From Streptomyces sp. NBC_01707 (GTDB lineage: Bacteria > Actinomycetota > Actinomycetes > Streptomycetales > Streptomycetaceae), in NCBI RefSeq assembly GCF_041438805.1, contig NZ_CP109190.1:2232001-2296000 (forward strand): a stretch of 64,000 bases of DNA, given 5' to 3'. This document shows, one piece after another, positions 9,233-43,815 of the stretch. The notes below the pieces were generated by a model. The model had not been told where the DNA came from, made no database searches, and saw nothing but the letters and a program-made list of their open reading frames with translations. Numbering within the stretch: position 1 is the first letter of the stretch; each line of letters opens with the position of its first letter. The translations under genes were made by a program, and so were the position numbers.

Positions 9233-9249
9233 TCCTCCCGGTCGAGTGG

Positions 9250-27377: not shown

Positions 27378-27410
27378 AGCCCGCGCCGGCCCCCACGGCG
27401 GGCGCGGGCT
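27378..27410 (+). terminator. Hairpin after the OFA transporter gene
   Basis: Arms AGCCCGCGCC and its complement make a 10-bp perfect stem, 27 bases after the stop codon. Confidence 0.6.
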
Positions 27411-27510
27411 TCCGCGCGATCAGGACGCACGTGGCCGCGTCCGTCCACCACATCGGCGGCGAGACCGACCGGCAGGTCCTCGGCCGGCCGCGCGGTTCCG
27501 AAGGCCGGTC

Positions 27511-27555
27511 AGGGACCGTACGCTCCTGGTGGCTGCCATGGAGCGTACGGTCCCT
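27511..27555. terminator. 16-bp perfect inverted repeat in the convergent gap
   Basis: AGGGACCGTACGCTCC at 27511-27526 is matched exactly by its complement at 27540-27555, with a 13-base loop. It lies between the plus-strand OFA gene and the minus-strand isomerase gene and could end both transcripts, but it overlaps a decayed coding remnant. Confidence 0.5.
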
Positions 27556-27600
27556 GAAGTCATCGGGCGGGCGTTCGCGCTGTTCCCCGGTCGTCAGGAA
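27523..27600 (+). pseudogene. Decayed copy of the DUF2254 gene end
   Basis: The plus strand reads LLVAAMERTVPEV and then GRAFALFPGRQE. The C-terminus of the DUF2254 protein ending at 16629 reads LLVKAVERTVPDV then EREFALVPDRQG, so about 17 of 25 residues match. The rest of the gene is missing here. Confidence 0.55.
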
Positions 27601-27645
27601 TACGCCGGTGAGGCCCGGACCACCCCTGCCGTGCCGCCGCCGGTA

Positions 27646-28815
27646 CTACTTGCGCAGCGCCGCCAGGTTGTCGTATCCGATCCGCGCATGCGTCAGGGAC
27701 TGCGCGAGGTCGGTGGAGCTCGGGGCGTTGTCCTGCTCGACCATCGGGTTGCGGTAGTTCTTCTCCCCGACCCGGCTGAAGAACGTCCGGTAGTCGATGA
27801 CCCCGGTACCGAAGGGGACCATGTCGTAGCCCTGTCCGCTGGTCGTGTTGACGACGCCGTCCTTGGCGTGGAACAGCGGGTAGCGCTTGTTGTTGCGGCG
27901 GACCAGTGCCGCGGGGTCGAAGATGTTCTCCCGCTGCGATCCGTCGTGGGCGGTGTAGGTGTGGAACTTGTACTGGGCGACGTGCGCCCAGAAGATGTCC
28001 ATCTCCAGCCATACGGTCTTCGGGTCGGTGACCTTGAGGAAGTACTCGAGCTTGCGGATGCCCGAGCTGCGGGTGGGCCGGCCCTGTGCGTCCAGCGGAC
28101 CACCGTCGAGCAGGAAGCCGTAGGCCGCGTCGTGGTTGTGGGTGTACAGCTTGATGCCCGCACGACGAGCGATCTGCCCCAGGGCGTTCCACTTGTCGGC
28201 GGCCACGTCCCAGTCGGCTCGGTAGGCGCTTCCGGTGGGGTCGCCACCGGTGCCCATGTGGTCCATGCCGAGGATGTTCGCTATCTCCAGGGTCCGCTTG
28301 AACTGGTCCAGGTCGCTCTGGTTCAGCGGCCAGGACGACGGGATGAAGCCGTGGTTGCCCTGGGCGCGCAGACCGTAGTCGTCCAGCCACGAGCGCAGCA
28401 GCTTCGCGCCCTCCACCGTCTCGAGGTTGCTTCCGCCGGGTGCGTTGGCGTGCTGGCCGTACCCGGCGAACTCGACCTGCTTGTAGCCGTAGCGGGCCAG
28501 CTCCTTGAAGACCTCGCGGAAGCCCGAGGGAAGGTTGGTGCTGAGCGGATCCCGGCCCGTGGCGTCGCGCACGGTGTACAGGATGATTCCACGCTTCTCC
28601 GCCGGAACCAGAGCCTGGCCGTGGCCGTGGCCGTGGTCGTGATCGTGCCCCTTGTGGGAAGCGGACTGGGCGAAGGCCGGCGACGCGCCGATGACGGGCG
28701 CGGCGATCGCCGTTGCCGCAGCGGCGGTGCAGGTGCTGAGAAAGCGCCGGCGGCTGACGCCGAGGCTGCGGCGCAGGGCGCCGTCCGTTCCGGATTCGTC
28801 GTTGTACACGGTCAC
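27646..28815 (-). CDS. Tat-exported sugar isomerase/epimerase-like TIM-barrel protein
   Basis: The 389-residue protein has a twin-arginine signal (VSRRRFLSTC, then TAAAATAIAAPVIGAS), a His-rich segment HKGHDHDHGHGHG, and an AP-endonuclease/xylose-isomerase-like TIM barrel (KRGIILYTVRD, GYKQVEFAGYG, IKLYTHNHD, VWLEMDIFWAH). Metal-binding residues of the family appear in EMDIFW and HAKDG. The His-rich patch could bind divalent metal. The GTG at 28813-28815 is chosen so that the Tat motif lies near residue 20. It is the most downstream member of a long minus-strand run, 49 bases after the phosphodiesterase gene. Confidence 0.8.
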   Translation of the reverse strand: MTVYNDESGTDGALRRSLGVSRRRFLSTCTAAAATAIAAPVIGASPAFAQSASHKGHDHDHGHGHGQALVPAEKRGIILYTVRDATGRDPLSTNLPSGFREVFKELARYGYKQVEFAGYGQHANAPGGSNLETVEGAKLLRSWLDDYGLRAQGNHGFIPSSWPLNQSDLDQFKRTLEIANILGMDHMGTGGDPTGSAYRADWDVAADKWNALGQIARRAGIKLYTHNHDAAYGFLLDGGPLDAQGRPTRSSGIRKLEYFLKVTDPKTVWLEMDIFWAHVAQYKFHTYTAHDGSQRENIFDPAALVRRNNKRYPLFHAKDGVVNTTSGQGYDMVPFGTGVIDYRTFFSRVGEKNYRNPMVEQDNAPSSTDLAQSLTHARIGYDNLAALRK

Positions 28816-28864
28816 GGTCTCTCTCTTTCTCGAAGATGCTCGCAACGCTGTGCACGGACCGATC

Positions 28865-30274
28865 TCATACGAGGCCGGCAAGCGCGAGGAGCAGGGACTT
28901 CACTTCGGTGGCCCGGACGGGTCCGGTGAACGCGTGGGGGGTGGAACAGAGGATGAGCGGACCTTCGTCGTCGCTCATGGGGAGGCGGCCGTGGCTGCCT
29001 CGGATGGGTGACGGGTCGAGGGGCACGACCGCCATGCGGTAGCGCATGCCGAGCTTCTTGCGGGCCACGGCGGTCGCCGCCTTGACGCGTACGTACGGGT
29101 CCTGGGGGTCCAGGAAGAGTTCGACCGGGTCGTAGCCGGGTTTGCGGTGGATCTCGACGAGCTGCGCGAAGTCGGGGGCGCGCGCGTCGTCGAGCCAGTA
29201 GTAGTACGTGAACCAGGCGTCCGGGTCGGCGACGGCGACGAGTTCGCCGGAGCGGGGGTGGTCGAGGCCGTGAGCCTTCTTGCCCTCGTCGTCGAGGAGT
29301 TGCTCGATGCCGGGCAGCCCCGCCAGGGCTTCGCGTGTCGCGTCGAGGTCCTCGGGGCGGCGTACGTAGACGTGGGCGAGCTGGTGGTCGGCGACGGCGA
29401 AGGCCCGGGAGGCCATCGGATCCAGGTACTCCATGCCGTCCTGGGTGTGGACCTCCAGCAGGCCGGCTCGGCGCAGCGCCCGGTTGATGTCGACCGGGCG
29501 GTCGACACGGGTGATGCCGTACTCGGAGAGTGCGACGACGGTGCGGCCCTCACGGCGGGCGTCCTCGAGGAGCGGGGCCACGGCCCGGTCGAGGTCGGCG
29601 GCGGCCTTGAAGGCACGAGGGTCGTCGGGGCCGTATCGCTGCAGGTCGTAGTCGAGGTGCGGGAGGTAGCACAGGGCCAGATCGGGGTGGCGGGTGTCGA
29701 GGATGTGCCGGGTGGCGTCGATGATCCACTGCGAGGAGACGAGGTCGGCGCCGGGGCCCCAGAAGTGGAAGAGGGGGAAGGTGCCGAGCTTCTCGGTGAG
29801 TTCGTCGTGGAGGGCGGGCGGCCGCGTGTAGCAGTCGGGTTCCTTGCGGCCGTCGGCGTAGTAGACGGGGCGCGGGGTGACGGTGATGTCGGTGTCGGCG
29901 CCCATGGCGTACCACCAGCAGATGTTGGCGACGGTGTAGCCGGGGTGGACGCGGCGGGCGGCGTCCCAGAGCTTGTCGCCGGCGACGAGTCCGTTGTGCT
30001 GGCGCCAGAGCAGGACGTCGCCGAGCTCGCGGAAGTACCAGCCGTTGGCGACGATGCCGTGTTCGGCGGGGGTGGTGCCGGTGAGGAAGGTCGACTGGGC
30101 GGCGCAGGTGACGGCGGGCAGCACGGTGCCGAGGGGGGCATGGGTGCCCGACTGTCCCAGGGACTTGAGGTGCGGCATGTGGTCGAGGAGCCGGGGAGTG
30201 AGGCCGACGACGTCGAGGACGAGCAGCGGGGTGGGGCCGGAGCCCAGGGACGAACCCGTTTCGGCTGCGGTCAT
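28865..30274 (-). CDS. Type I phosphodiesterase / nucleotide pyrophosphatase-type protein (Ebo cluster)
   Basis: The 469-residue protein has the alkaline-phosphatase-superfamily fold of type I phosphodiesterases: LLVLDVVGLTPRLLDH (first metal Asp), VLPAVTCAAQSTFLTGTTPA with the nucleophile Thr/Ser region, EHGIVANGWYF, and a distal SDDEGPLILCS and VALSEYGI metal-site block. It has no signal peptide, so it is cytoplasmic. Its ATG overlaps the EboE stop by 4 bases, which implies translational coupling. Phosphodiesterase-like proteins occur in ebo-type clusters; the phosphoester substrate is unknown. Confidence 0.8.
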   Translation of the reverse strand: MTAAETGSSLGSGPTPLLVLDVVGLTPRLLDHMPHLKSLGQSGTHAPLGTVLPAVTCAAQSTFLTGTTPAEHGIVANGWYFRELGDVLLWRQHNGLVAGDKLWDAARRVHPGYTVANICWWYAMGADTDITVTPRPVYYADGRKEPDCYTRPPALHDELTEKLGTFPLFHFWGPGADLVSSQWIIDATRHILDTRHPDLALCYLPHLDYDLQRYGPDDPRAFKAAADLDRAVAPLLEDARREGRTVVALSEYGITRVDRPVDINRALRRAGLLEVHTQDGMEYLDPMASRAFAVADHQLAHVYVRRPEDLDATREALAGLPGIEQLLDDEGKKAHGLDHPRSGELVAVADPDAWFTYYYWLDDARAPDFAQLVEIHRKPGYDPVELFLDPQDPYVRVKAATAVARKKLGMRYRMAVVPLDPSPIRGSHGRLPMSDDEGPLILCSTPHAFTGPVRATEVKSLLLALAGLV

Positions 30275-31446
30275 GGGAGCTCCTTGAGGCCGAGGTCGAC
30301 CAGGAGGTCGCGGGCGAGGGTGAGTTCGGCGGCGATGCCGTCGGCGAGCTGGGGGCGGGTGCGGGGGCGCAGTTCGGCAGGGAGCGCCTGCCAGGTGTAC
30401 GTCTCCACCTCCAGGTGACGGGTCAGCGGCCGGGCCCCGCCGACCAGGCGGCTCAGCGCGGCCCTGAGCACCGGGAGCGTCGAGGTGAGCGGTGGGGCGG
30501 GAGGTGCGTGCAGCGGTACGTGGAAGTGGGCACGCCACGGGGTGCCGTCGGGCAGCGCCTGGCCGGTGACCGCCTCGTCGAGGTCGTCGGTGCCGCGCAG
30601 CCCGTGCGTGGTCCGGGTGCGGGTCTGGTGGAGGAAGCGGGGTTCGGCGAAAGCGGCGAGCGCGGTACGCACCTCGGGCAGGTGCGGGTGCTCGGCGTGG
30701 AGTGCGGCGGAGAGCTGGGTCTTGGCCACCGGGATGCCGGCTGTGGTGAGCGCGTCGAGGGCGGTGCCCGGGTCCTCGAAGGAGGTGGCGAGGTGGCAGG
30801 TGTCGATGCAGATGCCGATGCGGTGGTGTCCGACGGCGGTGAGCGGTGCGATCGCGTCGGCGGTGGTCTCGACCGTGCAGCCCGGTTCGGGTTCGAGGCC
30901 GATCCGGATGGACTTGCCGGTCAGCTCGGCCAGGACGTCGAGACGTTCGGCGAGGGTGGTGAGGGCGGCGTGCGCCGTACGGGCGGCTTGCGGGTCGCCG
31001 GTGTACGGGGTGCGCCAGGCGATCGGGAGGGTGGAGATGGTGCCTTCGGTGACGTCGTCGGGCAGCAGTGTGGCCAGGAGCCGGGCAAGATCGGTGGTGT
31101 GGGCGAGCCGTTCGGGGTCCGTCCAGTCCGGCTTGTACACCCGGTACTTGACCTCTTCGGCGCCGAAGCCTTCGTAGGGGAAACCGTTCAGGGTCACGAC
31201 TTCGAGGCCGCGGCGGTCGAGTTCGGCGCGCAGTGAGCGCAGCTGGGCCGGGTCGTTGATCAGGGTGCGCGCGGCGTCCTTGGCGAGCCAGAGGCCGATG
31301 CCGAGGCGGTCACGGCCGAGGCGTTTGCGGACCGGTTCGCAGTGGTCGCGCAGCTGGGCGCGGACCCCGTCCAGGGACTCGGCGGGATGGACGTTGGTGC
31401 AGTACGCGAGATGGACGGTGGATCCGTCGGGGTGGCGGAAGCGCAT
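30271..31446 (-). CDS. eboE: Metabolite-traffic protein EboE (TIM barrel)
   Basis: The 391-residue protein reads LAYCTNVHPAESLDGVRAQL at the N-terminus, LGIGLWLAKDAARTL, LEVVTLNGFPYEGFGAEEVK, GLEPEPGCTVET, IGICIDTCHLATSFEDP and HFHVPLHAPPAPPL, which is the EboE pattern of TIM-barrel proteins related to xylose isomerase. EboE belongs to the ebo gene set studied in cyanobacteria, where it is needed for export of the scytonemin monomer to the periplasm. Here the partner compound is unknown. It overlaps the phosphodiesterase gene and is separated by 4 bases from the TatD-like gene. Confidence 0.85.
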   Translation of the reverse strand: MRFRHPDGSTVHLAYCTNVHPAESLDGVRAQLRDHCEPVRKRLGRDRLGIGLWLAKDAARTLINDPAQLRSLRAELDRRGLEVVTLNGFPYEGFGAEEVKYRVYKPDWTDPERLAHTTDLARLLATLLPDDVTEGTISTLPIAWRTPYTGDPQAARTAHAALTTLAERLDVLAELTGKSIRIGLEPEPGCTVETTADAIAPLTAVGHHRIGICIDTCHLATSFEDPGTALDALTTAGIPVAKTQLSAALHAEHPHLPEVRTALAAFAEPRFLHQTRTRTTHGLRGTDDLDEAVTGQALPDGTPWRAHFHVPLHAPPAPPLTSTLPVLRAALSRLVGGARPLTRHLEVETYTWQALPAELRPRTRPQLADGIAAELTLARDLLVDLGLKELP

Positions 31447-31450
31447 GGGG

Positions 31451-32299
31451 TCACTCCCCGCCGCGGAGTATGGAGTTCCCCTCGTGCAGCTGATCGGGGG
31501 TGGTGAGGTCGAGCTGGAGGCGGCCGCTCTGTCCGTAGAAGGCGACGGGATTGCGCCAGAGCACCTGATCGACGTCGTCGTCGCTGAACCCGGCGGCGAG
31601 CATGGCGTCGCCGACCTTGCGGGTCTTGAGGGGGTCGCTCCTGCCCCAGTCGGCGGCCGAGTTGACCAGGATCTTCTCCGTGCCGTGGGTCTTGAGGATC
31701 GCGATCATGCGGTCCTCGACCATCTTGGTGTCGGGGTAGATGGAGAAGCCGGCCCAGCAGCCGCTGTCGACGGCGTCCTTGACGGTCGTCTCGTTGAGGT
31801 GATCGAGCAGGACCCGCTCCGGGGAGAGGTGGGACTCGCGGACGACGTCGATGGTGCGGTGCAGGCCGGCGAGCTTGTCGCGGTGCGGGGTGTGGACGAG
31901 GGCGGGCAGGCCGTGGTCGGCGGCGAGCTGGAGCTGGGCGGCGAGGGCGGTGTCCTCGGCCGGGGTCATGGAGTCGTAGCCGATCTCTCCGACGGCCACG
32001 ACGGAGTCCTTGACCAGGTAGCGGGGCAGGGCGTCCAGGACGGGGGTGCAGCGGGGGTCGTTCGCCTCTTTGGGGTTCAGCGCGAGCGTGCAGTGGTGGG
32101 CGATGCCGTACTGGGCCGCTCGGAAGGGCTCCCATCCGAGCAGGGCGTCGAAGTAGTCGAAGAAGCTGGCGGGTGAGGTGCGGGGCTGGCCGAGCCAGAA
32201 GGAGGGTTCGACGAGGGCGCGGACGCCTGCGTCGTACATCGCCTGATAGTCGTCCGTGGTGCGGGACGTCATGTGGATGTGGGGGTCGAAGATGCGCAT
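31451..32299 (-). CDS. TatD-family metal-dependent hydrolase (Ebo cluster)
   Basis: The 282-residue protein begins MRIFDPHIHMTSRTTDDYQA, with the His-x-His of amidohydrolases, then DSVVAVGEIGYDSMTPAEDT, LPALVHTPHRDK, LLDHLNETTVKDAV and KILVNSAADWGRSDPLKTRK. These fit a TatD-like hydrolase of the EboB type. It lies between eboA and eboE with a 1-base overlap to eboA. The ATG at 32297-32299 is the family start. The reaction is unknown. Confidence 0.8.
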   Translation of the reverse strand: MRIFDPHIHMTSRTTDDYQAMYDAGVRALVEPSFWLGQPRTSPASFFDYFDALLGWEPFRAAQYGIAHHCTLALNPKEANDPRCTPVLDALPRYLVKDSVVAVGEIGYDSMTPAEDTALAAQLQLAADHGLPALVHTPHRDKLAGLHRTIDVVRESHLSPERVLLDHLNETTVKDAVDSGCWAGFSIYPDTKMVEDRMIAILKTHGTEKILVNSAADWGRSDPLKTRKVGDAMLAAGFSDDDVDQVLWRNPVAFYGQSGRLQLDLTTPDQLHEGNSILRGGE

Positions 32300-32979
32300 C
32301 AGGACTCCTCCGTGGGGGGATTGGGTCGCCCCTGCTCGGGGATGTTCGAGTGCTCGGGGAAGGGTGCGGGGGCCGTCAGGGCGAGGACGCGGCTCAGGTC
32401 GGAGGGGACGGCGCGGCCGGCCGCGGTGCGTTCGGCGGCGAAGTCGCCGAGCATGCGGGCGAGTTCCGCGTCGCCGCGGGCGCGCCGGGCCAGTGCGTCG
32501 ACGGCATCGACGGAGACGCCGGTGAAGAGGCATTTGAGGATGGCGTGCCGCCATTGGTGCGCGTCGAGATGGACGGCGGCGTACGGGCCGACGGCCGCGG
32601 CGACCAGCCGGGTGTCGTTGGTGCGCAGGGCGTCCTCGACGAGCGGAAGGGCGGTGGGACCGAGGTCCAGCCGGTGCAGGGTGAGGAGGACGGCGCGTCG
32701 TTCGGCGGCCGTGCCCTGGTCGTAGAGCCTGGTCACGGCGGGCAGGCCGGCGCGGGCTTCGAGGAGCAGCAGGGCGCGTACGGAGTCGGCGTACTCGAGT
32801 CCGCAGTGCCGGCCGGCGGCGGCGAACCGCAGCTCCCAGGGAGGGACGGCGTAGCGGTTGACAGGCGCGGTGTCCGCGGTGTCCTCGTGGAAGGCGGTGT
32901 GCGCGGCCTCCGCGAGGGCCTCGTCGAGCCAGGCGCGTGCGGCGCCGCCGAGCTGTACGTCGAGTTGCTTGCGGGTCAT
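32299..32979 (-). CDS. eboA: EboA domain protein
   Basis: The 226-residue, mostly helical protein matches EboA: QLGGAARAWLDEALAEA near the start, WELRFAAAGRHCGLEYADSV, RRAVLLTLHRLDLGPTALPL, and a conserved RWRHAILKCLFTGVSVD-type end (HQWRHAILKCLFTGVSVDAV). The biochemical role is not known; in Nostoc the ebo genes act in moving a metabolite precursor across the membrane. The ATG at 32977-32979 overlaps the upstream isomerase stop (ATGA), so translation is coupled. Confidence 0.85.
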   Translation of the reverse strand: MTRKQLDVQLGGAARAWLDEALAEAAHTAFHEDTADTAPVNRYAVPPWELRFAAAGRHCGLEYADSVRALLLLEARAGLPAVTRLYDQGTAAERRAVLLTLHRLDLGPTALPLVEDALRTNDTRLVAAAVGPYAAVHLDAHQWRHAILKCLFTGVSVDAVDALARRARGDAELARMLGDFAAERTAAGRAVPSDLSRVLALTAPAPFPEHSNIPEQGRPNPPTEES

Positions 32980-33857
32980 CGGCACGGTGTTGCTCCCTTC
33001 GAGGACTTCGCCGGGACGCGGTCGCGCAGGAACTCGATGGAGCTCCTGGCCAGTTCGGGGCCAGCGTGGGAGTGGCGGGGCAGTTCGACGACGGTCAGGC
33101 CGCGGTATCCGGTGTCACCGAGGGCGGCGAGCGCGTCGAGCACCGGCGGGAAGTCGATCTCGCCGTCGCCGAACGGGAGGTGCTCGTGGACGCCCCGGCG
33201 CATGTCCTCGATCTGGACGTGCCGCAGCCAGGGGGCGGCGGCCCGCACACAGTCGACGGGGGCGGCCGGTTCGAGGCACTGGCAGTGCCCGATGTCGAGG
33301 GTGAGCCCGAGCGGTTCGGGGTCGCCGCTGAGGACGCGCAGATGGTGGAAGTCCGAGAGAGTGGCCAGCAGATGGCCGGGCTCGGGCTCGATGGCGAGCG
33401 GGACGCCGGTACGGGCGGCGGCGTCGAGCACAGGTGCGAGGGCTTCGGTCAGCCGCTGCCAGGCCGTGTCCGGCGGGGTCTCGGGTGGGGTGATGCCGCT
33501 GAAGCAGTGCACGGCGTGGGCGCCGAGGTCGGCGGCGACGTCGACGGCCCGCAGCAGCAGCCGGGTGCGGGCGGCGCGTGCCTCCGGGTCCGGGTCGAGG
33601 AGGGACGGGCCGTGCTTGCGGCGCGGGTCGAGGACGTAACGGGCCCCCGTCTCGACGGTCACGCCGAGCCCCAGCCGGCCGAGCCTGTCCGCCACGTGCC
33701 GGGTGCGGGCGGCGAGATCCGGGGCCAACGGGTCGAGGTGCATGTGGTCGAGGGTGAGGCCGACGCCGTCGTAGCCGAGGTCCGCGAGGAGTCCCAGGGC
33801 GTCGTCCAGGCGGAGGTCGGTGAGCCCGTTGGTGCCGTAGCCGAAACGGATCGTCAT
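32976..33857 (-). CDS. Sugar phosphate isomerase/epimerase-like protein (Ebo cluster)
   Basis: The 293-residue TIM-barrel protein starts RFGYGTNGLTDLRLDDALGL and has DGVGLTLDHMH, GVTVETGARYVLDP, VPLAIEPEPGHLLATLSDF, GLTLDIGHCQCLE, HVQIEDMRRGVHEHLPFGDG and LTVVELPRHSH. The EPEPG, DIGHC and IEDM blocks carry the metal-binding residues of the AP-endonuclease-2/xylose-isomerase superfamily. It overlaps eboC upstream and eboA downstream by 4 bases each, so it is an integral part of the operon. Likely an isomerase or epimerase for a sugar or cyclitol. Confidence 0.8.
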   Translation of the reverse strand: MTIRFGYGTNGLTDLRLDDALGLLADLGYDGVGLTLDHMHLDPLAPDLAARTRHVADRLGRLGLGVTVETGARYVLDPRRKHGPSLLDPDPEARAARTRLLLRAVDVAADLGAHAVHCFSGITPPETPPDTAWQRLTEALAPVLDAAARTGVPLAIEPEPGHLLATLSDFHHLRVLSGDPEPLGLTLDIGHCQCLEPAAPVDCVRAAAPWLRHVQIEDMRRGVHEHLPFGDGEIDFPPVLDALAALGDTGYRGLTVVELPRHSHAGPELARSSIEFLRDRVPAKSSKGATPCR

Positions 33858-34930
33858 GTGAGGCTCACCTTCCGGGCGAGTGTGCGGGCAAGAGGGACGA
33901 GCCCCATGACGGCGAGCCCGGTGCCTGCCGCTCCGGCGCGGGCGGCGAGCACGGCCTGGAGCGGGATCATCGCCCGGATGCCGCTGCCGACGGCGCGCTG
34001 GGTGAGGGGTGGGGACGGGTTGAGGGTGGCGTGGAGGAGGGGTTCGGCTGCGGTACGGAGGTAGGTGGCGGTGAGTGCGGTGAGGAGGACACGGGGGGCG
34101 GGTGCTCCGGGTCGGGTCCGGTGGCGGTCACCGGGCCCGCCCTTCCCCGGCACCGGGGGCAGGTCCCGGGACCCGCGCTGCTCGCGCACCGCGGCGGCGC
34201 CGAGCGCGACGATCGCCGCGAGTGCGCCGAGGGGTGCGGCGGTGGAACCGCCCTGCGCCTCGTGGCGGGAGACTGCGGTGACCGCGTATGTGTGCGCCCC
34301 GAGCAGGGCCGCGGCGGGTAGGGCGGCACGGACGTCGGTGTGGGCGGTGCGAGCGGGGCGCGTGGGCTGGGCGGGGCCCGGCGTGCGGGCGCCGCTCAGG
34401 ATGCGGGCGCTGCGGGCGGCGCGCGACGTGCCGTTCGCGCCCGCCGGGCGCTCGACGCCCACGGACGCCGCGCCCGTCCCCGCCGTCGCCGTCGCGCCCA
34501 GCAGCAGGTCCAGTGCACGTGCCGCCGCCATCGCCGCCGGACCCGCCTGCGTGTGTTTCAGGCGGAGGTCGTAGGCCCAGACCGTTGCCGCCAGGCCGGT
34601 GGCCACCGTCAGGGCGGGGCGGCCCGCGCGGGCGGCCATGGTCAGGCCGGCGGCCGTCAGGGCACCGGCTGCCGCGAGCGCCGCGCCGGGGGTGATCCGG
34701 CCCGAGGGGATCGGGCGGTGCGGGCGGTCGATGGCGTCCTCGTCACGGTCGGCCCAGTCGTTGAGGGCCATCCCCGCCTCGTACAGGCACAGGGAGGCGC
34801 CGACCGCCAGCGCGGTGCCTCGGCCGGGCCGACGGCCGAGGGCCGCCGCCCCCGCGAGCGCGTCCCCTGGGACGGTGAACAGCGCCGAGACTCTGAGCAG
34901 TTCGGCCCAGGCCCGTACTGCCGCTCTCAC
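33854..34930 (-). CDS. eboC: UbiA-type prenyltransferase (EboC / SCO3242-like)
   Basis: The 358-residue membrane protein carries UbiA motifs: GMALNDWADRDEDAIDRPHR with the first Asp-rich site (NDxxDxxxD) and RPIPSGRITPGAAL, then a second helix bundle with WAYDLRLKHTQAG. About 7-8 membrane spans are predicted by eye; a low-complexity Pro/Arg loop (about 165-205) interrupts them, as is usual in streptomycete members. It would transfer a prenyl group to an aromatic or cyclitol-derived acceptor. It overlaps the inositol-phosphate synthase gene by 4 bases and the isomerase by 4. Confidence 0.75.
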   Translation of the reverse strand: MRAAVRAWAELLRVSALFTVPGDALAGAAALGRRPGRGTALAVGASLCLYEAGMALNDWADRDEDAIDRPHRPIPSGRITPGAALAAAGALTAAGLTMAARAGRPALTVATGLAATVWAYDLRLKHTQAGPAAMAAARALDLLLGATATAGTGAASVGVERPAGANGTSRAARSARILSGARTPGPAQPTRPARTAHTDVRAALPAAALLGAHTYAVTAVSRHEAQGGSTAAPLGALAAIVALGAAAVREQRGSRDLPPVPGKGGPGDRHRTRPGAPAPRVLLTALTATYLRTAAEPLLHATLNPSPPLTQRAVGSGIRAMIPLQAVLAARAGAAGTGLAVMGLVPLARTLARKVSLT

Positions 34931-36045
34931 TTCTGCCCCCGCAGTCGTTCGGCGAAGGTCAGGAGCTGCAGGTACTGCTCGGAGAGTGCGGCGGGGCCGC
35001 CGTCCGGGTCCTTGAAGTAGAAGCCGAGCTCGGGCCGCGGACCCGTCAGACCCACTTCTTGGGCGCGGGCCAGCAGTCGCGCCAGGTCCAGTACCAACGG
35101 GGCGGCCAGCGCCGAGTCGCAGCCCTGCCAGGTCGTCTGGAGGACCATCCGCGCCCCGAGGAAGCCGTCGAACGCGATGTGGTCCCAGGCCGTCTTCCAG
35201 TCGCCGAGCGCCGGTACGTCGTCGATGTGGACCTCGCCCTCGGGCGTGACGCCCAGTGTGTCGGCGAGGACGCGTTCCTTGCCCGCGTTCTTGGCCGCGG
35301 CGGCGCCCGGGTCCGCCAGCGCCGCCCCGTCCCCGCCGCCCAGCAGATTCGTGCCGGACCAGGCCCGTACGGGCAGGGCGCGTTGCACGAACATCGGGGC
35401 GAGTACGGAGCGGAGCAGCGTCTGGCCCGTCTTGCCGTCGCGGCCTGCGTGAGGAAGTCCGCAGGCCGCGACGGCGTCCTGGAGGGCGGGGGCGCGCAGC
35501 CCGGTGGAAGGGGTGAAGTTGATGTAGGGGCAGCCGGCCCGGAGGGCCGCGGCGGCGTAGAGCGAGCTGGCGGGCAGCCGGTGCTGTCCGGGTTCCGGGA
35601 CCGGCTCCGTCGACGCCACGTTGACCACGACGGTGCGGGCGAGTCCGTTGCGGCGGCCGAAGTCGGTGAGGTCGGCGGTGAACGCCGCGATGAGTTCCTC
35701 GTCCGTACGGGTGTCGCCGGGAAGCGGCCCGCCCGGGCGTATCTCCGTGTCGGCGGTGGCGAGTTCGGACCGCACCGCCGAGGGCAGACCGTGCGGCAGC
35801 ACTCCCCCGGCGGCCAGTGCCTCGGCCCGTTTGGGCAGCGGACAGTCGACGGTGTCGTGTCCGCCGAAGACCAGGGAGTTCAGCGCCGGCAGCCCGCTGT
35901 CGGCGAAGGGCGCGGTCTCGGTGACCATGCCCGCCGCCGGGTGGAGACCCGCCGTGACGGCTGCGCAGCCCGCCGTGGCGGTGGTGGCGACGGAGCCGCG
36001 TGCTCCGATGAACCAGACTCCGGTACGAACGGCATGTGCTGACAC
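34927..36045 (-). CDS. Inositol-3-phosphate synthase family protein
   Basis: The 372-residue protein has the myo-inositol-phosphate synthase pattern: GVWFIGARGSVATTATAGCA (NAD binding), VVVNVASTEPVP, PYINFTPSTGLRAPAL, GRDGKTGQTLLRSVLAPMF, VRAWSGTNLLGGGDG and HIAFDGFLGARMVLQTTWQGC. Such enzymes cyclise glucose-6-phosphate with a transient NAD oxidation. It is the first gene of the overlapping Ebo-type operon, probably a second, specialised paralog rather than the housekeeping Ino1. The exact product is inferred. The start at 36045 follows GGGAGGC. Confidence 0.8.
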   Translation of the reverse strand: MSAHAVRTGVWFIGARGSVATTATAGCAAVTAGLHPAAGMVTETAPFADSGLPALNSLVFGGHDTVDCPLPKRAEALAAGGVLPHGLPSAVRSELATADTEIRPGGPLPGDTRTDEELIAAFTADLTDFGRRNGLARTVVVNVASTEPVPEPGQHRLPASSLYAAAALRAGCPYINFTPSTGLRAPALQDAVAACGLPHAGRDGKTGQTLLRSVLAPMFVQRALPVRAWSGTNLLGGGDGAALADPGAAAAKNAGKERVLADTLGVTPEGEVHIDDVPALGDWKTAWDHIAFDGFLGARMVLQTTWQGCDSALAAPLVLDLARLLARAQEVGLTGPRPELGFYFKDPDGGPAALSEQYLQLLTFAERLRGQK

Positions 36046-36130
36046 GGGCTGCCTCCCTGGCTGGGGGTCCTGGCTGGGCAGTGCGAAGTGAGCGGCGCTG
36101 ATCAGATCGGGGCGGGCGGGAAGAGGTGGT

Positions 36131-36169
36131 GACGGCGGGCGGGGTAGGGCCTTTGCCCCGCCCGCCGTC
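36131..36169 (-). terminator. Hairpin between the ThuA-multidomain gene and the Ebo operon
   Basis: GACGGCGGGCGGGG at 36131-36144 is matched exactly by its complement at 36156-36169 (14 bp, 11-base loop), just past the stop of the upstream gene, so it separates the two minus-strand transcripts. Confidence 0.85.
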
Positions 36170-36186
36170 GGACTGCGGCTGTCGCC

Positions 36187-39100
36187 CTACGCGGCGGGCA
36201 GCTCCTTCAACTGAATGTTGCGGAAGGACACCTGGTCGTCGGCTCCGTGGTTCTGGAGGCCGATGTAGCCGTCCTTCAGACTGCGTACGGGATCGGTGTT
36301 GGTGAAGTCGTTGATCTTGACCCCGTTCAGGAAGACCTGGAGCCGTTCACCCTGAACCTTGATCTCGTAGCTGTTCCACTGGCCGGGCGGCCGCAGCACC
36401 TGGTCGCGAGCCTTGATGTTCGCCGCCTTGAAGGTGTAGACGGAGCCCGTGGTGCGGTCGGGGGCGTCGGTGGCGTCGATCTGGACCTCGTAGCCGTTGT
36501 TCACCGCGGACCAGGGGTCGTCGGACTCCGGGAAGCCGACGAAGACACCGGAGTTGTCGTCGCCCGCCAGCTTCCAGTCGAGCTTCAGCGAGTACGACCC
36601 GAGCTCCTTGGCCTGGTAGGTGAGGAGACCCATGCCGCCCTGGGAGCGGAGTTCACCGTCGACGACGTCGAACTTTCCGGGGCCGGCCTGCTTCCACCCC
36701 TCGAGCGTCTTGCCGTTGAAGATCGACCGGTAGCCGGTGTCCGGCTTGCAGTCGGCCTTGACCTGTCCGGCCGCGTAGCGGACGCCGCCGAGGAGCAGCT
36801 GGCGGAAGGCCGGTTCGGCGTACGACTCCTTGGTGTGGCCGAGGCCGGTGTAGAAGGAGCGGCCGCCCCCGTAGGACTGGCACCAGGTGATCGGGTGATC
36901 GCCCTTCATGGTGCCGCCGGAGTAGGTCGTCTCGTCGAGCGTGGCGAGGACCTTCACCTTGTCGCGCGGGTTGGTGCGGTAGTTGTACAGCTCGTCGGTG
37001 CGGTTCCAGGCGTCGTCGAGGTGGGCGGTCGCCGGGTTCTTGTGGTCCTCGACGCGGACGGTGACGGGCTGGATCGCGGGGTGCCCGGCGAAGTACGCGC
37101 CGACGAGTCCGCCGTAGAACGCCCAGTCGTACTCGGTGTCCGCGGCGGCGTGCACGCCCATGTAGCCGCCACCGGTGGCGATGTAGTTCTCGAACGCCTT
37201 CTGCTGGTCGGCGTTGAGCACGTCACCGGTCGTGGAGAGGAACACGACGGCGTCGTAGCGGGCCAGGTTGCTGGTGGTGAACTGGCCCGCCTCCTCGGTG
37301 GAGTCGACGGTGATGTTGCTGCTCGCGCCGAGTTCCTTCAGTGCGGCGACGCCCTCGGGAATGGCGTCGTGGCGGAAGCCGGCCGTCTTCGAGAAGACCA
37401 GGACCCGCTTGGCGGTCCGGTCGGGGGCGCTGTTGGAGAGCTCGAAGTCGTCGATGTCGTACAGCGCGCCCTCGCCGCCCTTGAAGACCAGGAAGAGTTC
37501 CGTGGCCTGCTTCGGGACGCCGCGCAGCGGTACGTCGATGTCCTGGAAGTTCTCCCAGCCGCCGGTCACCGGAACCGGTGCGGAGCCGAGGATCTTGCCG
37601 GTCGCGGAGCCGGACCGTACTTCGAGGAAGCCGCCCGCGCCGCCGGACGATATCCGGGCGGTGAGCTTGGTGGAGTCTCCGAGGATGTACGGCTTGAAGG
37701 CGATCCAGTCGTCGTTGTTGATGTCGCCGACCGTCTTGCCGCCCTCCGCGTTCGCCTTGTCGTACGTCTGGATGCCGGACGAATCGGTGAAGTGCTCGGC
37801 CTGCCGGTGGCGGGGCTGGAGCTGCGACTGGTCGTGGCCGCTGAGGGCGGCCTGGCCGCCGCCTCCACCGTCGGTGTACGAGGCGTCGATGACTCCGAAG
37901 ATGTTGGCGTTCGGGTCGTGACCGCCGTCCATCTCGGTCTTGATGGTGCCGGTGCAGCCGTGCTCCGTGGTGATCGGGTGACCGTGGCTGTCATGGCCGA
38001 GTACGAAGCTGACCTGGACCTTGGAGCAGTCGATCGTGCCGTCCTCGGGGTCGGTGACGGTCACCTTGAACGGGATGTCGTCGCCGAAGCTGAACAACTG
38101 GCCGTCACCGGGGAGTTCCAGGGTCACCTTGGGTGCGGTGTTGCCGACGGTCACATGGACGCTCGCCGAGCCGGTGCGGCCGGTGGGGTCCTTGGCGGTG
38201 ACGGTCGCGGTGTAGGTGCCGTTCTTCTTGTACGTGTACGTGGGGTTCGCGGCGGTCGACGTACCGCCGTCGCCGAAGTCCCAGGCGTAGGTGAGCGCGT
38301 CGTTGTCGGAGTCCGTGGTGCCCGCGGAGGAGAACTGCACCTTCAGCGGTGCGGTGCCGGACGTCTTGTTGGAGGAGGCTTCGGCGACCGGCGAGTGGCC
38401 ACCGGTGGCGTTCTCGATGCGGTAGAGCGCGGAGTGCTCGTCGCCGCCGAACCAGGAGACGCCGTAGTCCAGGACGTACAGCGCGCCGTCCGGGCCGAAG
38501 GCCATGTCCATCACCTGGGTCCCGGACCACGGGATGTCGTTGATGGACTGGACGTTGCCGTCACCGTCCTGCTCGATGCGCTTGATCCACTGCCGGCCGA
38601 ACTCACCGGCGAAGAAGTCCCCGTCGTACGCCTCGGGGAACTTCACGGGCGAGTCGAGGTCGGCGTCGTAGTGGTAGACGGGGCCGCCCATCGGCGACTC
38701 GGAGCCGGTACCGAACTCGGGCACGGAACCGCCGTCGTACGGGATCCAGGCGGCCTGCGCCGGGGGCAGGTCGACCAGACCGGTGTTGTGCGGCGAGGTG
38801 TTCTTCGGGGCGGCGCAGTCGAAGGCCGCACCGGACGTCTTCGTCGCGAAGTCGTAGTCGACGAAGGGGTCGTTCTTCCCGGTGCAGAACGGCCAGCCGA
38901 AGTTGCCCGCCTTCGTCACCCGGGCGAACTCGACCTGTCCGCCGGGTCCGCGCTTCGGGTCGGCAGCGCCCGCGTCGGGGCCGTAGTCACCGACGTATGC
39001 GATTCCGGTGGCCTTGTCGACGCTGAAGCGGAACGGGTTGCGGAAGCCCATCGCGTAGATCTCGGGCCGGGTCTTGTCCGTGCCCGGGGCGAAGAGGTTG

Positions 39101-39909
39101 CCCTCGGGGACGGTGTACGAGCCGTCGTCCGCGACCTTGATGCGGAGGATCTTGCCGCGCAGGTCGTTGGTGTTGCCCGAGGTACGCCGGGCGTCGAACG
39201 CCGGGTTGCGGTCGGGGCGTTCGTCGATCGGCGTGTAGCCGTCGGAGGCGAAGGGGTTGGAGTCGTCCCCGGTCGACAGGTACAGGTTGCCCTGTGCGTC
39301 GAAGTCGATGTCGCCGCCGACGTGGCAGCAGATGCCGCGCGACGTCTTGACGTCGAGGACCTTCTTCTCGCTGCTCAGGTCGAGGGTGCCGTCCTCCTTG
39401 AGGACGAAGCGGGAGAGCCGGTTGACGCCGTCGAACTTGGCGAAGTCCGCGGCGGTGCCGGTCTCCGGGGCGTCGCCGGACGGGGTGTCCAGCGGCGGCG
39501 CGTAATAGAGGTAGATCGCCCGGTTCTTGTCGAAGTCCGGGTCGATGCCGACGCCCTGGAGGCCTTCCTCATCGTGCGAGTAGACCGGGATCACGCCGGA
39601 GATCTTGGTGTCGCCGGCGCTGTCGGTGATCCGCAGCTCGCCGCTGCGCGAGGTGTGCAGGACGCTGCGGTCCGGGAGCACGGCCAGCGACATGGGCTCG
39701 CCGGTCTCGGCGGCCCCCTTGGCGAGGGTGACCTGCTGGAAGTCCTCGCCCGCGGCCGCCGCGGCGTCGGTGGCCGCCGGCGATACCGGGCCCGACGCGG
39801 AGGCGCCGGGGGCGCCCAGGGCGAGGGTGGCCGCGGTGAGCAGGCCGCCGGTGAGCAGGGCGAGGGACTTGCGGAGTCGGGGCCGGATTCTGGTTCTGCT
39901 TCTGTGCAC
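36187..39909 (-). CDS. Secreted multidomain protein: PQQ-type propeller, PKD, CBM, ThuA, DUF1080
   Basis: The 1240-residue protein has a signal peptide (LRKSLALLTGGLLTAATLAL). A glucose/sorbosone-dehydrogenase-type propeller follows (about 45-490: EPMSLAVLPDRSVLHTSRSG, ICCHVGGDIDFDAQGNLYLS), a PKD domain (about 505-590, TYAWDFGDGGTSTAANPTYT), a linker, and a carbohydrate-binding-like domain (about 713-825, IAFKPYILGDST). A ThuA domain (about 833-1050, KRVLVFSKTAGFRHDAIPEG, YMGVHAAADTEYDW) and a C-terminal DUF1080 domain (about 1055-1240, FNGKTLEGWKQAG) complete it. DUF1080 proteins include 3-keto-glycoside hydrolases. The GTG at 39907-39909 follows GGAGG. It is exported and presumably acts on sugars; the exact chemistry is inferred. 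Confidence 0.85.
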   Translation of the reverse strand: MHRSRTRIRPRLRKSLALLTGGLLTAATLALGAPGASASGPVSPAATDAAAAAGEDFQQVTLAKGAAETGEPMSLAVLPDRSVLHTSRSGELRITDSAGDTKISGVIPVYSHDEEGLQGVGIDPDFDKNRAIYLYYAPPLDTPSGDAPETGTAADFAKFDGVNRLSRFVLKEDGTLDLSSEKKVLDVKTSRGICCHVGGDIDFDAQGNLYLSTGDDSNPFASDGYTPIDERPDRNPAFDARRTSGNTNDLRGKILRIKVADDGSYTVPEGNLFAPGTDKTRPEIYAMGFRNPFRFSVDKATGIAYVGDYGPDAGAADPKRGPGGQVEFARVTKAGNFGWPFCTGKNDPFVDYDFATKTSGAAFDCAAPKNTSPHNTGLVDLPPAQAAWIPYDGGSVPEFGTGSESPMGGPVYHYDADLDSPVKFPEAYDGDFFAGEFGRQWIKRIEQDGDGNVQSINDIPWSGTQVMDMAFGPDGALYVLDYGVSWFGGDEHSALYRIENATGGHSPVAEASSNKTSGTAPLKVQFSSAGTTDSDNDALTYAWDFGDGGTSTAANPTYTYKKNGTYTATVTAKDPTGRTGSASVHVTVGNTAPKVTLELPGDGQLFSFGDDIPFKVTVTDPEDGTIDCSKVQVSFVLGHDSHGHPITTEHGCTGTIKTEMDGGHDPNANIFGVIDASYTDGGGGGQAALSGHDQSQLQPRHRQAEHFTDSSGIQTYDKANAEGGKTVGDINNDDWIAFKPYILGDSTKLTARISSGGAGGFLEVRSGSATGKILGSAPVPVTGGWENFQDIDVPLRGVPKQATELFLVFKGGEGALYDIDDFELSNSAPDRTAKRVLVFSKTAGFRHDAIPEGVAALKELGASSNITVDSTEEAGQFTTSNLARYDAVVFLSTTGDVLNADQQKAFENYIATGGGYMGVHAAADTEYDWAFYGGLVGAYFAGHPAIQPVTVRVEDHKNPATAHLDDAWNRTDELYNYRTNPRDKVKVLATLDETTYSGGTMKGDHPITWCQSYGGGRSFYTGLGHTKESYAEPAFRQLLLGGVRYAAGQVKADCKPDTGYRSIFNGKTLEGWKQAGPGKFDVVDGELRSQGGMGLLTYQAKELGSYSLKLDWKLAGDDNSGVFVGFPESDDPWSAVNNGYEVQIDATDAPDRTTGSVYTFKAANIKARDQVLRPPGQWNSYEIKVQGERLQVFLNGVKINDFTNTDPVRSLKDGYIGLQNHGADDQVSFRNIQLKELPAA

Positions 39910-40142
39910 GAGTGTCCTCCGGAGAGTGCCGGTTGTACGGGCGGGTGGAGCCGAGCCGTTCCGCGCGGGGACTGCCGCGCAGGTCACCTGGAGCCCAAAT
40001 GGGGCTCCAGCGACGCGAGTCATTTCGTGTACACCACAGGGACGGTAGACCTGTTCGTCCGAGGCGGAAAGCCCTTGCACAGCAGTTGAGTTGAACTTTT
40101 TCCTGCTGGAGGACAAAGAGGGATGAGGGCAGCCGGGACCGC

Positions 40143-40359
40143 CCCGACGGCGGACTTGCTGCCGTCGGGCCTCTCCCCTGCCCGAACCGGGGGCTGCGCC
40201 CCCGGACCCTGCGGTCCTCAATCGCCGGACGGGCTGAACAAGGTGCCCTCGAACGCCGGGCAGGCTTGGGTTCTGCCGCCTCGGCGGGCCACCGGAACCG
40301 AGTCCGGGAATCCAGCCCTCCGGCGATCGAGGAGCGGAGATGCGGGGGCGGAGCCCCCG
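40143..40359. terminator. Hairpin cluster and repeats between the isomerase and ThuA genes
   Basis: Three stem-loops lie in this gap: 40143-40169 (9-bp arms CCCGACGGC), 40187-40205 (8-bp CCGGGGGC, loop TGC) and 40343-40359 (7 bp, loop GGA). Two copies of the ATCGCCGGACGGGCTG repeat (40216-40238 direct, 40311-40333 inverted) sit among them. They probably end the sugar-operon transcripts. The promoter of the ThuA gene must lie in 39910-40140; an AACTTTTT stretch near 40093 is notable. Confidence 0.65.
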
Positions 40360-40366
40360 GGAGCCG

Positions 40367-41371
40367 TCAGTCGCCGCCCCCGAACGCCGCGTCGAACGAC
40401 GCCGCCGGCGGGTCGAAGTCGTACCGCTTCATCGTGGCAAGCGCTTCCGGCGCACCCGCCAGCCGGTCCATTCCGGCATCCTCCCACTCCACCGAGATCG
40501 GCCCTTCGTAGCCGATCGACCGGAGCATCCGGAACACGTCCTCCCACGGCACATCACCGTGCCCGCCGGAGACGAAGTCCCAGCCGCGGCGTGGATCGCC
40601 CCATGGGAGGTGCGAGCCGAGCCGGCCGTTGCGTCCGTCGAGGCGTTTGCGCGCCTCCTTGCAGTCCACGTGGTAGATCCGGTCCCGGAAGTCGTAGAGG
40701 AACCCGACCGGATCGAGGTCCTGCCAGACGAAGTGGCTCGGGTCGAAGTTCAGCCCGAACGCGGCCCGGTGGTCTACGGCCTCCAGGGCGCGGTGCGTGG
40801 TCCAGTAGTCGTACGCGATCTCGCTGGGGTGCACCTCGTGGGCGAACCGCACGCCCTCGGCGTCGAACACGTCGAGGATCGGGTTCCACCGTTCGGCGAA
40901 GTCCTCGTACCCCCGCTCGATCATCCGCGGCGGCACCGGTGGGAACATCGCCACCAGGTGCCAGATCGACGAGCCGGTGAAGCCTATGACGGTGTCGACT
41001 CCGAAGGCTGCGGCGGCACGCGCGGTGTTCTTGATCTCCTCGGCGGCCCGCTGCCGTACCCCCTCGGGCTCGCCGTCGCCCCAGATCCTGCCGGGCAGAA
41101 TGCCCTGGTGCCTTTCGTCGATCGGGTTGTCGCAGACGGCCTGGCCGACGAGGTGGTTGGAGATCGCCCAGCACTTCAGCCCGTACTTGTCGAGCAGCTG
41201 GTGCCGCCCGGTCAGGTAGCCGGGGTCTTCGAGGGCCTTGTCGACCTCGAAGTGATCGCCCCAGCAGGCGAGTTCGAGCCCGTCGTAACCGAAGTCACGG
41301 GCGAGCCGGCAGACCTCCTCCAGCGGCAGGTCGGCCCACTGGCCGGTGAAGAGAGTGAAGGGACGGGGCAT
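40367..41371 (-). CDS. Sugar phosphate isomerase/epimerase-like protein
   Basis: The 334-residue TIM-barrel protein has [101 protein letters not shown] and [11 protein letters not shown]. The metal ligands Glu, Asp, His and Glu are in place. It is the last gene of the sugar operon, 12 bases after the Gfo/Idh gene. Such partners often act on 3-keto-sugars or do inosose or keto-sugar isomerisation. Substrate unknown. Confidence 0.85.
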
Positions 41372-41383
41372 GCGCGGAACCTC

Positions 41384-42681: not shown

Positions 42682-43719
42682 TCAGCTGAAGCCCGTCGGC
42701 AGGTACTGGTCGATGTTGTCCTTGGTGACGACGGCGGAGTAGAGCGTGAGGCTGGTCGGGATCTCCAGTTCGGAGAGGCCGCCGATGCCCTTGCCCTGGC
42801 CGAGTGCGCGCGCCAGGTCGATGGCGGACGCGGCCATCGTCGGCGGGTAGAGGACGGTGGCCTTCAGGACGCTGTTGTCGGCCTTGATGGCGTCCATCGC
42901 GGACTTGGCGCCCGCGCCACCGACCATCAGGAACTCGTCCCGGCCGGCCTGCTGGATGGCCCGCAGCGCGCCGACACCCTGGTCGTCGTCGTGGTTCCAC
43001 AGAGCGTCGAACTTCTTCTGCGCCTGCAGGAGTTGAGCCATCTTCGCCTGGCCGGACTCGACGGTGAACTCGGCGGCCTGCCGGGCGACCAGCTTGACGT
43101 TGGGGTAGTTCTTGAGCGCGTCGGCGAAGCCCTGGCTGCGCTGCTTGGTGAGCTCCAGGTTGTCGATGCCCGCGAGTTCGACGACCTTGGCGTTCGGCTT
43201 GTCCTTGAGCTTTTCGCCGATGTACGTACCGGCGTTGAGGCCCATGCCGTAGTTGTCGCCGCCGACCCAGCAGCGGTAGGCCTGCGGTGAGGCGAAGATG
43301 CGGTCCAGATTGATGACGGGGATGCCCGCCTTCATCGCTTCCAGGCCGACCTGGGTGAGTGCCTTGCCGTCGGCCGGGAGGATGACGAGGACGTCGACCT
43401 TCTTGTTGATGAGGGTCTTGACCTGGCCGATCTGGGCGGCGGTGTCGTTGGAGCCCTCGGTGATCTCCAGGGTCACCTCGGAGTACTTCTCCGCCTGCGA
43501 CTTGGCGTTCTCGTTGATGGCGTTGAGCCACCCGTGGTCGGCCTGCGGACCGGCGAAGCCGATGGTGACGGGCTTGCCGGGCTTGTCGTCGGCAGCCGGC
43601 TGGTTGCTCTGCGCGGTCTGCGACTTCTTGGGCTCGTTGCTGGTGCAGGCGGTGAGGAGGGCGCCCGCGGAGACGGCTGCGGTGCCGAAGAGCAGTCCTC
43701 TGCGGCTGGTTTCTGGCAT
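42682..43719 (-). CDS. Ribose-type ABC sugar-binding lipoprotein
   Basis: The 345-residue protein carries a Tat-like signal with lipobox (SRRGLLFGTAAVSAGALLTA then Cys), so it should be exported and anchored. The body matches periplasmic-binding-protein 4/RbsB: VTIGFAGPQADHGWLNAINE, VLVILPADGKALTQVGLEAM, GIPVINLDRIF, GGDNYGMGLNAGTYIGEKLK, AELAGIDNLELTKQRSQGFA-like blocks and DALWNHDDDQGVGALRA. I chose the ATG at 43717-43719, which follows AAGGG; an upstream ATG at 43737 is possible. Confidence 0.9.
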   Translation of the reverse strand: MPETSRRGLLFGTAAVSAGALLTACTSNEPKKSQTAQSNQPAADDKPGKPVTIGFAGPQADHGWLNAINENAKSQAEKYSEVTLEITEGSNDTAAQIGQVKTLINKKVDVLVILPADGKALTQVGLEAMKAGIPVINLDRIFASPQAYRCWVGGDNYGMGLNAGTYIGEKLKDKPNAKVVELAGIDNLELTKQRSQGFADALKNYPNVKLVARQAAEFTVESGQAKMAQLLQAQKKFDALWNHDDDQGVGALRAIQQAGRDEFLMVGGAGAKSAMDAIKADNSVLKATVLYPPTMAASAIDLARALGQGKGIGGLSELEIPTSLTLYSAVVTKDNIDQYLPTGFS

Positions 43720-43815
43720 GGCTGTGGAACCCTTCATCCGGTGCGTGGTGGCAAGCGGAACTGTGGGTGGGGCGGGATCGGGTGAGGTGGGACAGGGGTG
43801 GGAGAGCCCGGGGAC

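Follow-up and report, generated by a model that had tools for sequence, protein, structure and literature searches.

The ebo operon and its variant in Streptomyces

Operons of the ebo type have been reported from many phyla and from algal plastids, and for the form that contains EboD a product of isoprenoid-cyclitol type was put forward in 2016 (PMC5133447). According to section 3.2 of the same report, published ebo operons vary in eboD. In Nostoc punctiforme, all five homologues of EboA, EboB, EboC, EboE and EboF are required for the scytonemin monomer to reach the periplasm (PMC6282210), and it is from these mutants that metabolite export to the periplasm is known for ebo. Here we describe a 64,000-nucleotide stretch of the Streptomyces sp. 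NBC_01707 genome (the window), which carries an ebo-type operon without EboD and with a gene of the myo-inositol-1-phosphate synthase (Ino1) family at its head. To judge from its sequence and that of its relatives, this is a real and conserved variant of the known operon, while the mechanism that we attach to it is a reasoned proposal. Namely, we lean towards the view that Ino1 replaces EboD as the ring-forming enzyme and that EboC prenylates the ring.

Compared with the eboABCDEF operons of Bacteroidota, Cyanobacteria and eustigmatophyte plastids as described in print (PMC5133447), the window operon likewise has an EboA domain, a TatD-like EboB, a UbiA-superfamily EboC, EboE and EboF in one unit, and it differs in lacking EboD, in its Ino1-type head, in an extra xylose-isomerase-like TIM barrel (hereafter TIM3), in a UbiA protein of the SCO3242 family and in gene order. 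Homologues of EboA, EboB, EboC, EboE and EboF are also common to it and the Nostoc punctiforme cluster, where the gene for an EboD homologue sits close by and faces the other way (PMC6282210). For Streptomyces coelicolor, a table of CDA-cluster genes includes SCO3242 as a putative transferase and SCO3243 as a myo-inositol phosphate synthase (PMC3610822), SCO3243 also appears among secondary-metabolism genes (PMC3897704), and SCO3237 is called a phosphodiesterase in a CDA-cluster listing (PMC8981147). In print, SCO3237-SCO3243 are thus assigned to the gene cluster of the antibiotic CDA (PMC3610822, PMC8981147); from the numbering, seven numbers for seven genes, and from the name of the model NF045897, they would be the same operon as the one described here. 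Among the papers listed in our literature searches (10 of 4,966 in one of them), we found none joining ebo genes to an inositol-phosphate synthase, as judged by titles, the starts of abstracts and term counts, and none of PMC5133447, PMC6282210 and PMC9235831 uses the word 'inositol' in its main text. The preliminary description of this stretch had expected a prenylated cyclitol from such an operon to be new; that idea had been in print since the 2016 proposal (PMC5133447), whereas the swap of the cyclase and the accompanying TIM3 do appear to be new.

The seven minus-strand genes run from 36045 down to 28865, none with an internal stop, in the order ino1-like, SCO3242-family UbiA, TIM3, EboA, EboB/TatD, EboE and EboF (Table 1). 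Their position, order and spacing are as first described: neighbouring genes overlap by 4 nt (Ino1/EboC, EboC/TIM3, TIM3/EboA and EboE/EboF) or by 1 nt (EboA/EboB), and the sole gap, of 4 nt, separates EboB from EboE. The TIM3/EboA overlap depends on the start of EboA, with ATG 32979, on which the agreement rests, giving 4 nt and GTG 32985 giving 10 nt. The list of open reading frames (ORFs) starts EboB at 32554 and EboF at 30538; we chose the ATGs further downstream, at 32299 and 30274, which seem to fit the gene joints better. The overlaps suggest that the seven genes would be co-transcribed. A scan of 27400-42000 gave no promoter-like site, and five terminator-like sites as compared with a mean of 4.2 in shuffles. 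At loci L033 and L053 (L-numbers denote loci and G-numbers genomes compared here), TIM3 and EboA lie within a single open frame, in agreement with a printed remark on actinobacterial fusions (PMC5133447, section 3.4.4).

Is this indeed an ebo operon? The EboA protein scores 151.5 bits against the EboA-domain model NF035938 (cut-off 50) and EboE 427.6 bits against NF035939 (cut-off 250), and a Pfam search gave no EboD, or any 3-dehydroquinate (DHQ)-synthase-like gene, in the operon, so that the initial assignment to an ebo-type operon without EboD stands. Of the profile matches to the Ebo families that it proposed to look for, those of EboA and EboE were obtained, EboD gave none, and the score against the curated EboC model stayed below its cut-off. 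The UbiA protein, which carries the motifs NDWADRDED at residue 57 and YDLRLK at 120, exceeds the cut-off of the SCO3242 prenyltransferase model NF045897 (378.6 bits against 260). EboB (PF01026, TatD-like) aligns over its full length with TatD-family proteins of other ebo, EboD-type and ebo-like clusters, and the PF01663 family of EboF is also found in EboD-type loci.

The head gene and its link to the ebo genes

The head protein is over the cut-off for both Ino1 Pfam domains (PF07994, 112.2 bits; PF01658, 101 bits), which upholds the earlier claim of an NAD-using cyclase of another family at this position. Against TIGR03450, the model of the housekeeping mycothiol-type Ino1, it reaches only 23.4 of 638 bits. 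The Streptomyces sp. NBC_01707 genome has two PF01658 matches, namely the window gene (104.5 bits) and a separate, mycothiol-type ino1 at C1:5212006 (127.3 bits), and with a mycothiol-type protein of another family the head protein shares 28% identity over about half of its length. Its nearest solved relative is 1u1i (2e-57), which we take to be the Ino1 of A. fulgidus; 1gr0, presumably that of M. tuberculosis, matches only at 1e-4. In a tree of 56 Ino1 rows, a branch with support 100/99, present in all 200 bootstrap trees, sets the window and 19 other ebo-linked loci of actinobacteria, 20 rows in all, apart from the rest, and 12 mycothiol-type rows sit behind a branch of 6.0 changes per column. 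Taken together, the TIGR03450 score, the separate genome copy and the tree rule out the head gene as a housekeeping Ino1. Compared with the A. fulgidus enzyme, the window protein is alike in family and catalytic residues and falls in a separate clade. Namely, the A. fulgidus residues N255, K278 and K367, changed in mutant structure entries, have their equivalents in N233, K256 and K345, and D239, K252, K284 and D310, which we presume to be catalytic as well, are likewise present. All of these are invariant across 17 ebo-linked Ino1 rows from actinobacteria, Gemmatirosa, haloarchaea and a planctomycete metagenome-assembled genome; to judge by them, the head gene is probably enzymatically active.

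EboE is present in 29 of 41 Streptomyces genomes (over the cut-off in 28), and a second ino1 accompanies it in 28 of the 29, as against 0 of the 12 genomes without EboE (Fisher p 1.6e-9, with the relatedness of the genomes ignored, and with partial matches counted for EboE of G008 and the second ino1 of G017). UbiA is over the SCO3242 cut-off in 25 of the 41, all of them within the 29, and weak UbiA matches of 21-24 bits occur in three EboE-negative genomes. The preliminary description had named a head gene that groups with housekeeping Ino1, with no link to the ebo genes in relatives, as the outcome that would speak against it; both the tree and the co-occurrence across Streptomyces point the other way. 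Of 296 genomes in a draw across the phylum, 18 have EboE (17 of them over the cut-off), and stretches were taken from 14 of these besides the window's own, G143, G192 and G334 being left out. The order Ino1-UbiA-TIM3-EboA-EboB-EboE-EboF is found in 13 loci, the exceptions being the second copy of G162 and a broken copy in G283; it recurs in actinobacteria of other genera, where the individual proteins are 33-75% identical, and also beyond the class. With this conservation of order, and with a second ino1 that in Streptomyces goes with EboE, the grouping of these genes exceeds chance. Homologue searches with the head protein and EboE covered the best 120 of more than 7000 matches each, of which those named are nearly all Streptomyces, and they consequently give no wider taxonomic view.

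How does the Ino1 form relate to the EboD form? We scored 119 loci, a non-random set, and took as the ebo core UbiA together with at least two of EboB, EboE (or an EboE-like protein) and EboF. This core is present in 60 loci: 24 have Ino1 and TIM3, 24 have EboD, none has both and 12 have neither. The Ino1 loci comprise 19 from actinobacteria, Gemmatirosa L048, the haloarchaeal L052, L054 and L056, and the planctomycete L139; the 59 loci without the core are mostly planctomycete or verrucomicrobial, with an EboB-like gene alone or with one or two others. Plasmid records were matched with EboB (51) and with EboE (48), and 19 regions were examined; further loci came from a genome-contig scan with an EboB alignment (best 80 matches). 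On plasmids, EboD-type operons are found in Mycetohabitans, Ketogulonicigenium, Azospirillum, Deinococcus, Aureibacter, Roseivivax and Salipiger, and Ino1-type operons in four Streptomyces and in Nonomuraea (unannotated, scored with the 119 loci). When profile hidden Markov models were run on six-frame ORFs at E<=1, an Ino1 match appeared in 0 of the 24 EboD loci and an EboD match in 0 of the 24 Ino1 loci. What is more, TIM3 accompanies Ino1 and is not found in the EboD loci examined: each of the 24 Ino1 loci reaches 340 bits or more with its profile, which is in part by construction, the profile having been made from these rows; the EboD loci stay at 62 bits or below, and 8 of the 12 loci with neither cyclase give 163 bits or more. 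In 21 of 22 actinobacterial genomes, some with short EboE contigs past whose ends a gene would escape, there is no DHQ-synthase-family gene within 20 kb of EboE, which rules out an EboD hidden at that distance; in the other, G014, a 24.8-bit match about 10 kb from EboE is, by its neighbours, probably a maleylacetate-reductase-like gene. In quick trees the cyclase label switches three times among the 42 labelled rows of EboF and twice among the 46 of UbiA, as if the cyclase had been exchanged inside one pathway, though the starred branches force only one label change.

Outside the actinobacteria, true EboE together with Ino1 was found only in Gemmatirosa (Gemmatimonadota; EboE 460 bits). In Halocatena, Halobaculum and Natronococcus, ino1 occurs with EboF, an EboB-like TatD protein, UbiA and two TIM barrels; the Halocatena UbiA reaches 178 of 250 bits against the EboC model, the first TIM barrel of the Halocatena cluster gives no EboE match, and a profile search found no EboA in the three loci. 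Because their TIM barrel does not match EboE, the haloarchaeal clusters, at first considered full ebo members, are better called ebo-like; by their sequences, such ebo-like clusters with Ino1 are seen in three haloarchaea and one planctomycete. Haladaptatus L055 has the same gene set, with ino1 absent from the stretch.

Some further loci may be recorded here. Many planctomycete and verrucomicrobial loci among L096-L164 have an EboB-like gene without other recognised ebo genes in the stretch. At L035 (G283; 9203-9761), EboE is split into two short matches that overlap by 11 nt, with the middle of the protein missing, and at L043 (8995-10173) a lone eboE lies in an apparent aromatic polyketide gene cluster, the other ebo genes not being in the stretch. 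In L166 and L167, from Hymenobacter and Roseomonas, ino1 is found in another setting, beside Gfo/Idh/MocA, YcaO-like and sugar isomerase genes.

A putative prenylated cyclitol and its alternatives

The AlphaFold2 model of TIM3 has a mean predicted local distance difference test score of 90.4, and its Foldseek ranking lists SCO6571 (3e-16), D-tagatose 3-epimerase (4e-15) and L-xylulose-5-phosphate 3-epimerase UlaE (6e-15); in this model, TIM3 folds like ketose and ketose-phosphate 3-epimerases. It keeps invariant E, D and H residues, presumably of the kind that binds metal in its superfamily. In the predicted EboA model, the confidently modelled portion (about residues 81-205) consists of helices, and a fold search gave no solved match at E<=0.001.

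From the genes, their order and co-occurrence, the exclusion of EboD in the loci examined, the intact Ino1 residues and the predicted TIM3 fold, all of which were computed, we infer the reactions, product and transport role that follow. From glucose 6-phosphate, or from a hexose phosphate close to it, Ino1 would form an inositol-type cyclitol phosphate by ring closure, and the 3-epimerase-like TIM3 would adjust either the sugar phosphate before ring closure or a keto-cyclitol after it. EboF would take off a phosphate or split a phosphodiester, the membrane enzyme EboC would add a prenyl chain, EboB and EboE would complete the head group, and the helical EboA may keep the enzymes together. The pathway would thus end in a membrane-held prenylated cyclitol, which would aid the passage of a small molecule, or of a substrate for a secreted oxidoreductase, through the membrane.

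One can also argue that the Ino1-like cyclase makes some other cyclitol from a sugar phosphate supplied by TIM3, and that both forms of the operon end in the same C7-type ebo product. The products of the Ino1 family can indeed differ. Namely, 6k96, which we take to be Ari2 of the aristeromycin pathway, is a five-membered-cyclitol-phosphate synthase and likewise an Ino1-family cyclase in specialised metabolism, and we know of no prenyltransferase partner for it; it grouped with the mycothiol type, on a long branch, in an earlier 58-row tree that held one wrong ORF (L067) and is superseded by the 56-row tree. The resemblance of TIM3 to ketose and ketose-phosphate 3-epimerases and its company with Ino1 would fit such a scheme, but conservation of the key A. 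fulgidus Ino1 residues speaks for the ordinary reaction, and no pointer to a seven-carbon substrate was found here. We consider a common C7-type product unlikely.

Would EboC accept a cyclitol at all? Of 14 aromatic acceptors offered to UbiA-297, an EboC homologue from marine Bacteroidota, 6 were farnesylated, the best being 8-hydroxyquinoline-2-carboxylic acid (PMC9235831), and this counts both against a prenylated cyclitol and in favour of a different explanation, in which the head gene provides an extra supply of inositol phosphate for phosphatidylinositol or mycothiol, EboC prenylates an aromatic or quinoline compound, and the link to ino1 is regulatory. In the actinobacterium G276, moreover, the sole PF01658 match is the one inside the ebo operon, and this copy may serve the whole cell. 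G276 is, however, the exception among 14 genomes checked, the other 13 having at least one ino1 outside the Ino1-form operon, and supply alone does not easily account for an ino1 that overlaps eboC or for the exclusion of EboD. We regard this explanation as distinctly improbable.

That said, several further observations weigh against Ino1 being a simple substitute for EboD in the making of a prenylated cyclitol. EboD products are thought to lose their phosphate (PMC5133447, section 3.7), and the products of the two forms would consequently differ. The window UbiA reaches 113.7 bits against the curated EboC model NF035940, below the cut-off of 250. G014 has EboE, and an ebo-type ino1 was found nowhere in its genome; the Streptomyces loci L022, L036, L037 and L040 have UbiA-TIM3-EboA-B-E-F with ino1 absent from the stretch, though the L040 contig ends close upstream of its ebo genes and L036-L040 were selected from the genus sample for an ino1 seemingly missing or distant, or for a second EboE. 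The haloarchaeal and planctomycete clusters are without an NF035939 EboE, and the haloarchaeal Ino1 rows form a group of their own, in which the ebo-linked copies are mixed with an unlinked Halomarina copy and with some other rows. When six ebo-linked Ino1 rows of the Streptomyces type were held together with the 12 of the mycothiol type, an approximately unbiased test did not reject the arrangement (p 0.3), so that the very long mycothiol branch could attach in more than one place. Finally, the exclusion of Ino1 and EboD follows taxonomy in part in this non-random sample. Moreover, 10 of the 24 EboD loci do not reach 15 kb, and an ino1 past their ends would escape.

As regards the ino1-less form, L022, L036 and L037 have FAD oxidoreductase-like and inositol-monophosphatase-like genes upstream (Pfam having been run on L036 only). 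The inositol-monophosphatase-family gene upstream of UbiA, considered as proof of an inositol substrate, is a weakened argument, because all 10 genomes searched have at least three such genes. G162 carries both ebo forms, with and without ino1, and by coordinates G007 appears to do so as well.

Sugar-oxidation neighbours and wider meaning

Table 1. Genes of the operon and its surroundings, in positions of the window
Feature	Position	Strand	Remarks
ino1-like head gene, myo-inositol-1-phosphate synthase family	34927..36045	-	372 aa; GTG start, AGGGAGG upstream
EboC-like UbiA-superfamily prenyltransferase, SCO3242 family	33854..34930	-	358 aa; NF045897
TIM3, xylose-isomerase-like TIM barrel, predicted 3-epimerase-like fold	32976..33857	-	293 aa; PF01261 144.9 bits
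EboA-domain protein	32299..32979	-	226 aa (228 aa from GTG 32985); NF035938
EboB, TatD-like metal-dependent hydrolase	31451..32299	-	282 aa; PF01026 46.8 bits
EboE TIM barrel	30271..31446	-	391 aa; NF035939
EboF, type I phosphodiesterase/nucleotide pyrophosphatase family	28865..30274	-	469 aa; PF01663 234.6 bits
TIM-barrel protein, 49 nt after EboF	27646..28815	-	PF01261 87.2 bits; apparent twin-arginine signal SRRRFLS, by eye
Sugar dehydrogenase with PKD, CBM6, ThuA and 3-keto-disaccharide hydrolase domains	36187..40221	-	PF07995, PF18911, PF03422, PF06283, PF06439
TIM barrel	40367-41371	-	Pfam
Gfo/Idh/MocA	41384-42613	-	Pfam
Periplasmic binding protein	42682-43737	-	Pfam
Permease	43816-44865	-	Pfam
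ABC ATPase	44862-46391	-	Pfam

The codirectional genes that precede the operon look, by their domains, like a sugar uptake and oxidation set, of which the multidomain sugar dehydrogenase, with a signal-like N-terminus by eye, lies 141 nt before ino1. The TIM-barrel gene on the other side is a possible extension of the operon unit; relatives with 77-78% identity likewise follow EboF in L025, L027 and L039. These surroundings bring in one more alternative, namely that the operon is an arm of secreted sugar oxidation, with the prenylated product as a carrier or electron acceptor for extracytoplasmic dehydrogenases. Of 12 actinobacterial genomes, picked after such neighbours had been seen, 8 have a PF07995 sugar dehydrogenase gene on the strand of EboE and no more than 10 kb from it, as against about 0.25 expected (a rough figure, since split matches inflate the gene number); this gene is upstream of ino1 in three genomes and downstream of EboF in five. 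In Natronococcus L056, a pyrroloquinoline quinone (PQQ)-dependent sugar dehydrogenase follows EboF. The Nostoc ebo genes work with the periplasmic ScyE (PMC6282210), and neighbours of the ScyD/ScyE family were found here only on two related Streptomyces plasmids, immediately before ino1 (L041, 3026-4225; L057, 4096-5298), with a multicopper oxidase gene close by. On the other hand, there is no PF07995 gene near EboE in G324, G182, G276 and G133, and the 24 EboD loci gave one weak sugar-dehydrogenase match (L149, 48 bits) and one annotated PQQ dehydrogenase (L059). The dehydrogenase neighbourhood may reflect function or shared sugar-gene neighbourhoods, which could account for the pattern, and a dedicated oxidation arm seems to us very unlikely.

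Returning to the replacement of EboD by Ino1, one can extend it into a broader idea, which we state as a doubtful but possible one. Namely, bacteria and haloarchaea might share a pathway to O-prenylated inositol (or inositol phosphate) lipids, a new class of membrane carrier, in which Ino1 with TIM3, or EboD alone, would be exchangeable modules built on unrelated NAD-dependent cyclases, and the carrier would ferry substrates to secreted beta-propeller oxidoreductases.

If two unrelated cyclases indeed fill one slot, ring formation would be the constant step, and the cyclitol hypothesis would consequently be better supported than by either form of the operon alone. Moreover, since the reaction of Ino1 is known, one can guess, and label, the substrate and the ring of the product. 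Streptomyces, and among them probably S. coelicolor with its SCO3237-SCO3243 genes, are easy to manipulate, and in them the ebo product would be open to feeding and mass spectrometry.

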